From Phormidium sp. FACHB-1136 (lineage in GTDB: Bacteria; Cyanobacteriota; Cyanobacteriia; Phormidesmidales; Phormidesmidaceae), in NCBI RefSeq assembly GCF_014697375.1, contig NZ_JACJRS010000031.1, forward strand, positions 1 through 56,505: a stretch of DNA of 56,505 nt, given 5' to 3'. A program made the translations under genes and the position numbers. The number at the start of each line of letters is the position of its first letter. Within the stretch, counting starts at the first letter, position 1. Below the pieces are notes generated by a model. The model did not search any database. It was not told the DNA's origin and saw only the letters and a program-made list of their open reading frames with translations. Positions 21,467 to 26,478 of this stretch are shown in pieces.

Positions 21467-23320
21467 CTAAACCTTGGTGCCGAGGCGCTGGGTGATTTCT
21501 CCGGCGTATTGTTCGGCATTGAGGCCCACTACCAGGTGCAGCACGTTTTCCTGCACCCTCATCATCCCCTGCACTCCGGCGGCTTGGAGCGCGGTTTCAT
21601 TTACGGAAACCGGATCGGTGACTTCCACCCGGAGACGAGTCAGGGCCACGGCATCGACGGTACGGAGGTTGTCGGCTCCACCGAGGGCGGCGATCATAGC
21701 CTCGGCCTTTTCGCCCGCCTGGGGATCGGGGGGAATTTTGGCTAGATCGGGGGCAGTTTCATCCACAAAGCCTTCGGCGGGGGCTTCCACCATGTCCGCT
21801 TCGGGGCCAGCCACTTTCAAATAGTCGCCCATGTCGGTTTTCAGGTTGTCGGAGCGGGGGCCGAAGATGGCCTGGGCGTTGTTGCCCACTTGCACGACTC
21901 CAGACGCGCCCAATGCCTTCAGCCGGGGCACGTTGACCTTGGCCATATCGGCGACTTCAATCCGCAGGCGGGTAATGCAGGCATCGAGATTTTTGATGTT
22001 GCTGCGTCCGCCAAAGGCCAGCACCAGAGCCTTCGCCATTTCGGCTTTGTCGCCCGTAATCGCCGCAGAGACATCATCGGTGCCCGTGTCTTCCTCACGA
22101 CCGGGGGTTTTGAGGTTGAAGTGGTAGATCATGAAGCGGAAGGTGAAATAGTACACTGCCGCAAACAGGGGCGCTAGGGCCAAAATCAGCCAGGTTCGGG
22201 TGCCCAAGCTGCTGAACAGCACAAAGTCAATCAGCCCGTGGGAGAAGGTGAAGCCCATCCGCCCGCCCAGGGTGACAAACAGCCAGTTGCCAAACCCGGC
22301 AATCACCGCATGGACGGCAAACAGGGGCGGCGCGACAAAGAGGAAAGAGAACTCAATTGGCTCGGTGATGCCCGTCAGGAAGGAGGTGAGGGCAGCGGAA
22401 ATCATCAGACCCCCCACCTGCTTGCGGTTTTTGGGCTTGGCGCTTTGCCAAATGGCTAGGGCGGCGGCGGGCAGGCCAAACATCTTGAACCAGTAGGCTC
22501 CGCCGATGATGCCAGCGGTGGGGTCTCCGGCAAAGAAGCGGGCAATGTCCCCCGTCACCTGTTGCCCGGTAATCGGGTCGGTGAAGGAGCCGATTTCAAA
22601 GAAGAAGGGCACGTTCCAAACGTGGTGCAGACCAAAGGGCAGCAGCAGGCGCTCGATGAAGCCGTAGATGGCGACGGTGATGGCGACGTTGTCCCCCTCG
22701 GCGGCGGTGGAGGCAAAGCTGTCAATCAGGGCACCGATGGGGGGCCAAATCACGCTCATCACCAGGCCCATCAAAATGGCGGCAAAGGCGGTAATGATGG
22801 GCACCGAGCGCTTCCCGGCAAAGAAGCCCAGGTAGGGCGGCAGGGTAATCCTAAAAAACTTGTTGAACATATAGGCGGCGATGCAGCCCATAATCAGGCC
22901 GCCAAACACCCCCGTATCTAGGGTAGGAATGCCCAGCACCGAGGTGGTTTCTAGGCCCATGCCGATAGCCACGGTGCCCAGGGTGGCCAAAAACACCATC
23001 AGGCCCACCGTGGCCGCCAGGGCCGAAACGCCATCGTTGCCCGTGTAGCCAATGGCCACCGCAATGGCAAAAATCAACGGCATACTGGCAAAAATCGCGT
23101 CGCCAGAGTTCCGCATAATGGCCGCCAGCCACTCCGGCAACCACCAAAATTTAGAGTCCGTCAGCAGCCCTTGTTCAATCTGCTGAAGCTCAATCAGACG
23201 GGCGCTGCCCAGGCCCAGCAGCAACCCTGCCACGGGCAACACCGACACGGGCAGCATCAGCGACTTGCCCATCTTTTGCAGCAGCCCAAAGGCTTTATTC
23301 CAGGTTTGTTTGAGGTCCAT
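21467..23320 (-). CDS. ptsG: Glucose-type PTS permease EIICB with an additional C-terminal EIIB-like domain
   Basis: The 617-residue protein imports and phosphorylates a hexose, probably glucose or N-acetylglucosamine. Residues 1-405 are EIIC with about ten membrane helices and the family motifs [15 protein letters not shown] (230-244) and [15 protein letters not shown] (317-331). Residues 425-502 are a canonical EIIB with phospho-acceptor Cys448 in [10 protein letters not shown]. Residues 533-617 form a second EIIB-like domain ([19 protein letters not shown]) in which the Cys is replaced. The ATG at 23320 begins [20 protein letters not shown]; the upstream frame runs through a repeat. It lies downstream of the EIIA-HPr-EI gene on the same strand. 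EIIC specificity cannot be read by eye. Confidence 0.92.
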
Positions 23321-23349
23321 GGGTTTAATCGACAGGTGGATAGGTGGGT

Positions 23350-23905: not shown

Positions 23906-23913
23906 TTCGAGGA

Positions 23914-26478
23914 TTACGCATCATCCAAGGGCACCAGGTCGCGGACTTGGGCGGCGGAATCGAGATTCAGGGCTTGTTGGGCGAGTTCCTGACAGTGGGT
24001 GTAGCTGAGGGTTCTCACCTGGGCTTTCACCGAGGGAATCACCGGGATGCTGACACTGAGTTCTTTGACTCCTAGGCCAACCAGGATCGGCACCGCCTGG
24101 GGATCGCCCGCCACGCCGCCGCATACCCCCACCCATTTGCCGTGTTTGTCGGCTCCGCGCACGGTGATGTCAATCATCCGTAGCACGCTGGGGTCGAGGG
24201 CATCGACGAAGGGGGCCAATTTGGGGTGGCCGCGATCCATGGCCAGGGTGTATTGGGTGAGGTCGTTGGTGCCGATGGAGAAGAAATCCACCTGTTCGGC
24301 GAAGCGTTCGGCCATCACCGCCGCCGAGGGCACCTCGATCATGATACCGATTTCGATGGGGGGCACACCCAGCTTTTGGCGCTCCTCTTCCATCACTGCC
24401 TTGGCCATGTGGAGTTCTTCTAGACGGGCAATCATCGGGAACATCACCCGTGCCTTACCTGCCGTAGAAGCTTTGAGGATGGCGCGAAACTGAGTTCGCA
24501 GCAGTTCGGGACGGTCGAACCCCAGGCGAATGCCCCGTTCCCCTAGGAAGGGATTTTCCTCGTGGGCCATGGGCAGATAGGGTAGGGGTTTGTCGCCCCC
24601 CACATCCAAGGTGCGGATGATCATGGGCTTATCTGGCCCCAGGGTCTTGAGGATGCTGGCGTAGATCACCTCCTGCTCGTCTTCGCTAGGGGCGGAACTG
24701 GCCTCCATAAAGACAAATTCCGTCCGCAGTAGCCCGACCCCTTCGGTGCCGACCTTGAGGGCGGCTTCGGCATCTTCTAAACCGCCGATGTTGGCCACCA
24801 CTTCGATGTGCCGTCCATCCTGAGTGTGGGCCAGGTCAAAGGCGTGGCGTAGGTCTTCCTCCTGCTTGGCCTTTTGGCGGGCGATGCGGGTTTGGATGGC
24901 CTCGATTTCAGTGGCGGTGGCATTGAGGCGCAGCTTGCCCCTGGTGCCGTCCAAAATCACCGGGGTGCCGTCGGGCAGATCCAGGGTGCGGGCCTCGATG
25001 CCAGCAATGGCAGGGATACCCATGGAACGTGCCAAAATCGCCACGTGGGAGGTGGCCCCTCCGGCGACGGTGCAGAACCCTTTGACGCGGCTGGGGTCGA
25101 TGGTGGCCATATCCGAAGGGGTGAGGTCTTCCGCCAGCAGGATGGTGTTTTCGGGGAAGAGCTGGGTTTCTTCCTTCACGCCGAGGAGGATACGAAGGAC
25201 GCGATCCCCCACGTCCCGCAGGTCGTTGGCTCGTTCTGCCAGGAGGTCGTTTTTAAGCTGGGCAAGCTGGTTGGCCTGGGTGGTGTAGGTTTGCTGCCAA
25301 GCAAAGGCGGCACTTTTGCCCTTGTCGATGGCGCTGGTGGCGATGTCCGCCAGTTCCGGGTCGTCCAGCAATTCCTGGTGGGCCGAGAAAATTGCGGCCT
25401 TGCCGGGATCGCCCTGGCCGTGCACCTTAGCCCGTAGGCTTTCAATTTCTAGCTCCGCCTGGGCCATGGCCTTCTCCAGCTTGCGGCGCTCGGCGTTGGG
25501 GCTATCTCCGGTTTCGGGCACGTTGAGTTCCTGGCGACGGGCGCGGAGGGTGTTGCCCACCGCTAAGCCTGAGGACGCGGCGACCCCCAAAATGATGTTC
25601 GGGTCATCGCTCTTGGGCCGGGGTGCCGGGGCAGACACTTCGGACTGGGCAATGCTGGCGGGGGCCGACATAATCGGCGTGGCCCCCTCTTCCCCTAACC
25701 CAGTGCGGACGGCTTCCTCCAGTTCGGCAATGGCTTCCTCGGCATCGGCCCCGCTGGCCTCTAGGGTGACGGTATCGCCTCGCGCAATCTCCATCCCCAT
25801 CAGCCCCACCACGCTGCGAACATTGGCGCTGTCGCTGCCCCGGTGAATGCGGATGGTGGACTGGTACTTCTTCGCCAGTTGGGCCAGCACCGCCGAAGGT
25901 CTGGCGTGAAGCCCAGACGGATTGGGAATGATGATGCCCTTCGACCGAATCGTCAACCCAGCGGCCTCGTCTTCGGTAGCCGCGACCTCAGCCAAAACCA
26001 GGGTCAGCACCGTATCCCTAGCGGCATTGGCAAACCCCACATTGGGCCGAAATTCCGCCACCCGCTCCCCATTCGTCACCACAATTTGGGTCAGTAGACT
26101 ACGGGCCTTCTGGGCTACAAAGTCGGCATCAAACTCGATTAGGATGTCCCCAGTTTTCACCTGGTCGCCCACCTTCACCTTGGGAGTAAAGCCCTCCCCC
26201 TTCAGGGCCACCGTATCCAGGCCAATGTGCATGAGGATTTCGATGCCCTCGGCAGTCTTCACCGTGGCCGCATGGTTAGCGCTGTGGATTTGCACAATTT
26301 CCCCATCGCAGGGGGCCAACAACGCCTGACTGGTGGGGTCGATGGAAATGCCGTCGCCCACCATCTTTTGGGCAAAAACGGGGTCGGGCACGGTCTCGAT
26401 GGGCACCAACTGCCCAGACAAAGGAGCCACCAAAACCAGGGTTTTCGTTTTGGCAGGAGGGGCTTGCACAGTGGTCAT
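23914..26478 (-). CDS. PTS fusion protein EIIA(Glc)-HPr-enzyme I
   Basis: The 854-residue cytoplasmic protein carries the soluble half of the sugar phosphotransferase relay. Residues 14-160 are EIIA of the glucose type (EILMHIGLDTV, active His84). Residues 175-265 are HPr (NPSGLHARPSA, His191; regulatory-Ser region NVRSVVGLMG, Ser222). Residues 294-854 are enzyme I: GGATSHVAILARSMG with His478, LLRTEFVFM, and GVCGGVAGDP with catalytic Cys786. Phosphate would pass PEP to EI, HPr, EIIA and on to the EIIB of PtsG. The ATG at 26478 (MTTVQAPP) is chosen; the earlier in-frame start lies in a repeat. The same domain order is known in some proteobacteria (NagF/PtsA-like). All catalytic residues are present. 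Confidence 0.95.
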   Translation of the reverse strand: MTTVQAPPAKTKTLVLVAPLSGQLVPIETVPDPVFAQKMVGDGISIDPTSQALLAPCDGEIVQIHSANHAATVKTAEGIEILMHIGLDTVALKGEGFTPKVKVGDQVKTGDILIEFDADFVAQKARSLLTQIVVTNGERVAEFRPNVGFANAARDTVLTLVLAEVAATEDEAAGLTIRSKGIIIPNPSGLHARPSAVLAQLAKKYQSTIRIHRGSDSANVRSVVGLMGMEIARGDTVTLEASGADAEEAIAELEEAVRTGLGEEGATPIMSAPASIAQSEVSAPAPRPKSDDPNIILGVAASSGLAVGNTLRARRQELNVPETGDSPNAERRKLEKAMAQAELEIESLRAKVHGQGDPGKAAIFSAHQELLDDPELADIATSAIDKGKSAAFAWQQTYTTQANQLAQLKNDLLAERANDLRDVGDRVLRILLGVKEETQLFPENTILLAEDLTPSDMATIDPSRVKGFCTVAGGATSHVAILARSMGIPAIAGIEARTLDLPDGTPVILDGTRGKLRLNATATEIEAIQTRIARQKAKQEEDLRHAFDLAHTQDGRHIEVVANIGGLEDAEAALKVGTEGVGLLRTEFVFMEASSAPSEDEQEVIYASILKTLGPDKPMIIRTLDVGGDKPLPYLPMAHEENPFLGERGIRLGFDRPELLRTQFRAILKASTAGKARVMFPMIARLEELHMAKAVMEEERQKLGVPPIEIGIMIEVPSAAVMAERFAEQVDFFSIGTNDLTQYTLAMDRGHPKLAPFVDALDPSVLRMIDITVRGADKHGKWVGVCGGVAGDPQAVPILVGLGVKELSVSIPVIPSVKAQVRTLSYTHCQELAQQALNLDSAAQVRDLVPLDDA

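Follow-up and report, generated by a model that had tools for sequence, protein, structure and literature searches.

A putative glucose-type phosphotransferase system encoded by two genes in Phormidium sp. FACHB-1136 and other cyanobacteria

Two genes that together would encode every component of a glucose-type phosphotransferase system (PTS) lie on a 56,505-nucleotide contig of the cyanobacterium Phormidium sp. FACHB-1136 (NZ_JACJRS010000031.1). The whole contig was analysed and is hereafter called the window; it is one of the 260 contigs of a genome of 5.98 Mb. One gene encodes a fusion of a glucose-class enzyme IIA (EIIA), the phosphocarrier HPr and enzyme I (EI), while the other encodes a protein joining the enzyme IIC and IIB domains (EIICB). 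Their open reading frames (ORFs) were called at 23914-26535 and 21467-23530 of the minus strand, with ATG codons at 26478 and 23320, respectively, from which residues are numbered throughout. The features of the locus are collected in Table 1.

Table 1. Features of the PTS locus in the window (PEP, phosphoenolpyruvate)
Feature	Position	Strand	Basis
Multiphosphoryl transfer protein EIIA(Glc)-HPr-EI, 854 aa from ATG 26478	23914..26478	-	ORF, Pfam, PTS_I_fam
EIIA domain (glucose class, PF00358) with His69 and His84	26065..26433	-	converted Pfam range; alignment
HPr domain with His191 and Ser222	25705..25941	-	Pfam; alignment
Enzyme I domains: N-terminal, mobile with His478, PEP-binding with Cys786	24007..25587	-	Pfam; alignment
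Glucose-class EIICB with second EIIB-like domain, 617 aa from ATG 23320	21467..23320	-	ORF, family models, Pfam, structure model
EIIC membrane domain (PF02378): GITEP motif, nine glucose-contact residues	22295..23269	-	Pfam; alignment
EIIB domain with phosphorylation Cys448	21860..22120	-	TIGR00826 match range; alignment
EIIB', second EIIB-like domain: TRLR motif present, cysteine absent	21476..21718	-	secondary structure of model; PF00367
Intergenic gap: GC-rich repeat copies and 73-aa ORF (23552-23773)	23321..23913	-	sequence

In the fusion protein, Pfam places the glucose-class EIIA first (EIIA_1, 156.5 bits), then HPr (89.6) and finally the three EI domains (PEP-utilisers_N, 84.0; PEP-utilizers, 85.3; PEP-utilizers_C, 359.8), and the protein scores 555.9 bits against the PTS_I_fam model, whose cut-off is 341.7. 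With EIIA_1, HPr and EI, their relay histidines and the cysteine of EI on a single chain, it has the make-up of a multiphosphoryl transfer protein with an N-terminal IIA(Glc). His84, His191, His478 and Cys786 are each invariant in the 71 fusion proteins aligned, and so is HPr Ser222, which we take to be the position of the HPr regulatory serine. Likewise, Cys448 of EIICB is invariant in 83 of 83 rows, three from E. coli counted; the alignments admitted matches that cover at least 700 residues in the fusion protein and 480 in EIICB. The genome holds a single match to EIIC (PF02378) and three to PF02896; in the parts examined around the two that lie outside the fusion gene, neither EIIA nor HPr was seen.

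EIICB matches the Pfam EIIC and EIIB families with 263.2 and 81.2 bits, and C-terminal to EIIB it carries a second EIIB-like domain, here called EIIB', which taken alone still matches PF00367 (36.1 bits, cut-off 27). A structure model built from 51 sequences reached a mean predicted local distance difference test score (pLDDT) of 84.3, an earlier one from 13 sequences having been poor (52.0); its best experimental match is 8qsr (Z 38.3, root mean square deviation 5.1, 378 residues aligned), and the helix and strand order of EIIB' in it follows that of the first EIIB. Matches of EIIB' to other folds all had Z below 6 and were set aside. The first EIIB reads ACITRLR and EIIB' reads AVALTRLR, with no cysteine and with one more residue before TRLR; despite its PF00367 match, EIIB' thus has valine-alanine-leucine where a glucose-class EIIB has its cysteine one residue before that motif. 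The TR-R motif is kept in EIIB' in all 78 rows that include the stretch, a count that omits two cyanobacterial rows that are cut short (L092, L094) and the three from E. coli, in which there is no such domain. A cysteine at the shifted site occurs in Competibacteraceae, Geobacteraceae, Desulfobulbaceae and some others and is absent from the cyanobacterial rows, one of which (L085) has a cysteine elsewhere in the EIICB tail.

By the chemistry established for such systems, PEP would phosphorylate His478 of EI, and the phosphate would then pass to His191 of HPr and to His84 of EIIA, all on one polypeptide, before moving to Cys448 of EIIB and to glucose bound in EIIC, so that the sugar would arrive in the cell as glucose-6-phosphate. 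We consider it very probable, judging from the sequences, that the two genes make up a working, self-contained glucose PTS. A preceding reading of the window from its letters alone, hereafter the sequence-only reading, had proposed a complete glucose-type PTS in two genes of a cyanobacterium, which the ORFs, the Pfam domains, the family models and the clade described below all bear out, and it had named the five relay residues of the two proteins at precisely the positions given here; it had missed EIIB' and the 593-bp gap between the genes.

The substrate was judged from several lines of evidence. EIICB passes the glucose models TIGR02002 (669.2 bits, cut-off 591.8) and NF008301 (649.6, cut-off 647) and fails the N-acetylglucosamine (GlcNAc) model TIGR01998 (486.6 against 553.2). 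The nag-type EIICB of another cyanobacterial locus, L086, passes TIGR01998 at 648.2, and therefore the models separate the glucose type from the GlcNAc type within the phylum. A study of E. coli IICGlc lists as glucose contacts E202, R203, H211, H212, N215, K257, T297, E298 and F337 (PMC11393339). The nine residues so listed are identical in the window, in all 30 cyanobacterial rows (window counted) and in 50 of 50 others, whereas NagE departs from that list at 202, 212 and 257 and MalX at several positions. In a tree of 46 EIICB rows, made by a quick method and with a warning over the long MalX outgroup branch, 12 nag-type rows stand apart (support 99), and 11 cyanobacterial rows group together on the glucose side (support 100). 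Moreover, the genome has no NagB match over the cut-off, the weak one obtained being a 6-phosphogluconolactonase. A major facilitator superfamily transporter in the genome scores under the sugar-porter cut-off. Because of the model scores, the contact residues, the separate nag-type clade and the missing NagB, the likely substrate in this genome narrows to glucose; the first half of the earlier proposal of glucose or GlcNAc therefore stands, while GlcNAc is unlikely here.

Some observations weigh against a self-contained glucose PTS and deserve to be set out together. The margin over the NF008301 cut-off is just 2.6 bits, and the genome encodes two glucokinases. The two PTS genes are separated by the 593-bp gap with its repeats and small ORF, and because of this repeat-bearing gap their co-transcription in this genome is uncertain; promoter-like matches numbered 3, close to the mean of 1.9 in shuffled sequence. 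No conserved regulator was seen beside the PTS pair across the compared loci. Finally, nagA is present in the genome, nagB is over the cut-off in 9 of the 27 carriers searched, and three cyanobacterial loci (L086, L087 and L080) have nagB and nagA within the PTS operon or close to it, the only EIICB visible at two of them being glucose-type.

These last findings are also what favours import of GlcNAc or glucosamine, as by the proteobacterial NagF-NagE system, whose NagF has the same EIIA-HPr-EI architecture. At L087 the nagB and nagA genes follow the glucose-type EIICB gene, and at L080 the same pair follows after one further ORF; the nagB labels are model matches, and the nagA labels rest on 67% identity between the ORFs and 48% to E. 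coli nagA. Given these loci and the nagB counts, other members of the cyanobacterial clade may use GlcNAc or glucosamine. For the window, the failed GlcNAc model, the listed glucose contacts that are all retained where NagE differs, the position of the cyanobacterial EIICBs apart from the nag-type clade, and the want of NagB over the cut-off in this genome and in G014 and G011 of the same genus make this substrate improbable. Beside these loci it may be recorded that L086 (positions 1-7317, filamentous cyanobacterium CCP2) has the order fusion gene, nagB, nagA, nag-type EIICB, glucose-type EIICB, and has the look of a complete PTS unit for both GlcNAc and glucose.

A mainly regulatory relay, reporting on PEP and sugar status with transport as a minor role, is very improbable. 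In its favour, carbon-fixing cells produce glucose-6-phosphate themselves, the cysteine-free EIIB' could be a sensor, and Ser222 is kept in every fusion-protein row. Nevertheless, transport best explains the nine listed contacts in 30 of 30 cyanobacterial EIICs; HPr kinase was also unmatched in the genome, a weak argument since the control search was silent in Bacillus subtilis too.

Concerning the region between the genes, copies of the GC-rich repeat were observed at 23343-23403, 26502-26562 and 23882-23905 of the window, plus one at 48789 on the other strand. Copies directly precede each of the PTS genes, the fusion gene is also followed by one, and the upstream GTG starts of the two ORFs read through the repeat. 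The 73-aa ORF between the genes contains a CxxC motif and matched no Pfam family. In other genomes the arrangement of the pair is consistent, the fusion gene and EIICB being on the same strand in 70 of the 73 named loci that hold both.

Glucose PTS is rare in the cyanobacteria phylum-wide. EIIC (PF02378) is over the cut-off in 7 of 386 genomes sampled across the phylum, five with full-length glucose-type copies, one with a fructose-type copy (L021) and one with a remnant (L022); this agrees with the scarcity stated in the sequence-only reading, and close homologues across all cyanobacteria, the result named there as fatal to it, were not found. The remnant, in G287, retains parts of both genes in decayed form, and two other sampled genomes of its genus have an intact EIICB. 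Among 38 relatives' genomes, the source genome included, EIICB matches with E up to 0.001 occur in 14, all of the same genus, two of them (G004, G005) being partial copies at contig ends and one (G021) fragments only; full-length copies within the genus are 80-95% identical. The fusion protein is found with at least 60% identity in 23 of 63 genomes of the family and in 14 of 26 of the genus, the source genome counted, the family figure including two copies broken in two pieces (G438, G418) and one at a contig end (G421). Farther afield, 30 of the best 80 of 409 relatives are cyanobacteria by title, among them Tildeniella, Nodosilinea, Leptolyngbya PCC 7375 and Heron Island J, Planktothrix, Aphanothece, Chroococcus, Phormidium, Stenomitos, Drouetiella, Elainella and Pegethrix; the named-genome comparison covers these best 80, and more distant cyanobacterial copies may be missing from it. 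A second fused donor, with an EIIA of the fructose class followed by HPr and EI, was noticed at 1510-3996 of L061 (G008), the single locus in which its domains were tested; similar matches with 46-50% identity in 22 of the 63 family genomes suggest that many of its members have a fructose PTS.

Both proteins were placed in trees, as the sequence-only reading had advised. The 29 cyanobacterial EIICB rows, of seven families by title, form one clade with the window (support 100), and so do the 22 cyanobacterial rows of the fusion protein (support 100). These trees are quick ones with support from the Shimodaira-Hasegawa-like approximate likelihood-ratio test only, that of the fusion protein having the simpler model, and the nearest group outside the cyanobacterial clade is not firmly resolved in them. 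Of the 26 genomes of the genus, 25 have the oligopeptide-type permease gene that flanks the operon, and the fusion gene adjoins it in all 12 carriers in which the site is readable (G000, G014, G005, G011, G007, G017, G010, G020, G004, G003, G019 and G009). As to the two other carriers, the contig of G016 ends at the site and G438 has no permease match. Among the non-carriers, G021 and G436 retain EIICB fragments only beside the permease, G008 has an empty site at which the permease directly adjoins the gene found after the operon in the window, and the nine remaining ones have no operon piece within 1500 bases at the permease.

Different parts of the operon survive in the two remnants, a sign of repeated loss within the genus, whose ancestor is inferred to have had the operon; a recent transfer into this strain alone does not agree with the common site. 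Across the phylum we infer one entry, or else an old retained trait, then losses and perhaps transfers between cyanobacteria. The distribution suggests an old and patchily kept trait, not the quirk of one strain, so that the attribution to "this strain" in the sequence-only reading was correct as to presence and too narrow in scope: among the sister cyanobacteria that it wished to see compared, carriers of the genus, including isolates such as Nodosilinea sp. FACHB-131, share the site. A proteobacterial contaminant, conceivable in an assembly of 260 contigs with a contamination figure of 3.02%, has next to no chance of being the explanation, since the same operon and permease neighbour recur in independent assemblies, isolates among them, the EIICBs of the genus are 80-95% identical against at most 58% for non-cyanobacterial copies (best 80 of 409 relatives), and both proteins fall in the cyanobacterial clade with support 100.

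The role of EIIB' is the least certain point. FruA carries duplicated IIB domains, both of which are reported to be needed for full activity in E. coli (PMC2405797); by analogy with this, the cysteine-free EIIB' could serve in docking or sensing of the fused donor. A strict tie of EIIB' to a fused donor did not hold as a clean rule, the nag-type EIICBs being mixed: there is one TRLR motif in those of three Azospirillum genomes and two in those of six Burkholderiaceae genomes, and in two other genomes they carry a fused EIIA. A wider scenario, tentative and rather unlikely as a whole, would make this an old, clade-specific cyanobacterial PTS with EIIB' in docking or sensing, whose relay would couple the photosynthetic supply of PEP to sugar uptake, the carriers switching between autotrophy and the import of sugar by group translocation.

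In the rest of the window, positions 15138-16484 of the plus strand, about 5 kb from the PTS pair, encode a protein of the glucose/sorbosone dehydrogenase family (PF07995, 437.9 bits). Over the window there was no Rfam match at gathering scores and ARAGORN found no tRNA. Beyond the PTS pair, no genuine neighbour gene was common to more than five loci among the 25 largest clusters.

Whole sets of glucose PTS genes, together with signs of fructose and GlcNAc systems in relatives, are thus spread across several cyanobacterial families. If active, the system would give its carriers a PEP-driven route of sugar uptake, would bear on mixotrophic growth and on sugar exchange in mats, and would provide PTS genes naturally suited to photosynthetic cells. 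Furthermore, the conserved cysteine-free EIIB' represents an unexplored component in a family of transporters whose structures have been solved. No published report of a cyanobacterial PTS was found among the open-licence papers that the literature searches listed, and we do not claim that such systems are unpublished.

Among known systems, E. coli PtsG (IICBGlc) is 55.5% identical over IIC and IIB, shares the nine listed glucose contacts and has the same fold (Z 38.3 to 8qsr), but it has a single EIIB domain, and its EIIA, HPr and EI partners come from genes of their own. The fructose system FruB-FruA resembles the present one in its fused donor and in the duplicated IIB domains of FruA (PMC2405797); it differs in that its EIIA is of the fructose class, of which L061 is the cyanobacterial donor example. 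The NagF-NagE system has an EIIA-HPr-EI donor, NagF, as well, whereas the NagE-side EIICB belongs to the nag-type clade and that of the window fails the GlcNAc model. There is also a likeness to the fused operons of Competibacteraceae, Paraburkholderia, Caballeronia and Azospirillum, in which an EIIA-HPr-EI gene stands beside one for a glucose-type EIICB that likewise carries a second EIIB-like domain. Their EIICBs are 54-58% identical to that of the window and fall outside the cyanobacterial clade; in Competibacteraceae the second EIIB-like domain has its cysteine, and the fusion gene of three Azospirillum loci lies on the opposite strand. The same type of operon is present in many proteobacteria among the best 80 of 409 relatives, and the predicted IIC-IIB-IIB' layout is common to them and to the window. 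The system of Phormidium sp. FACHB-1136, as far as its genes reveal it, is of a known kind, with all its parts from known families, in an unexpected host.

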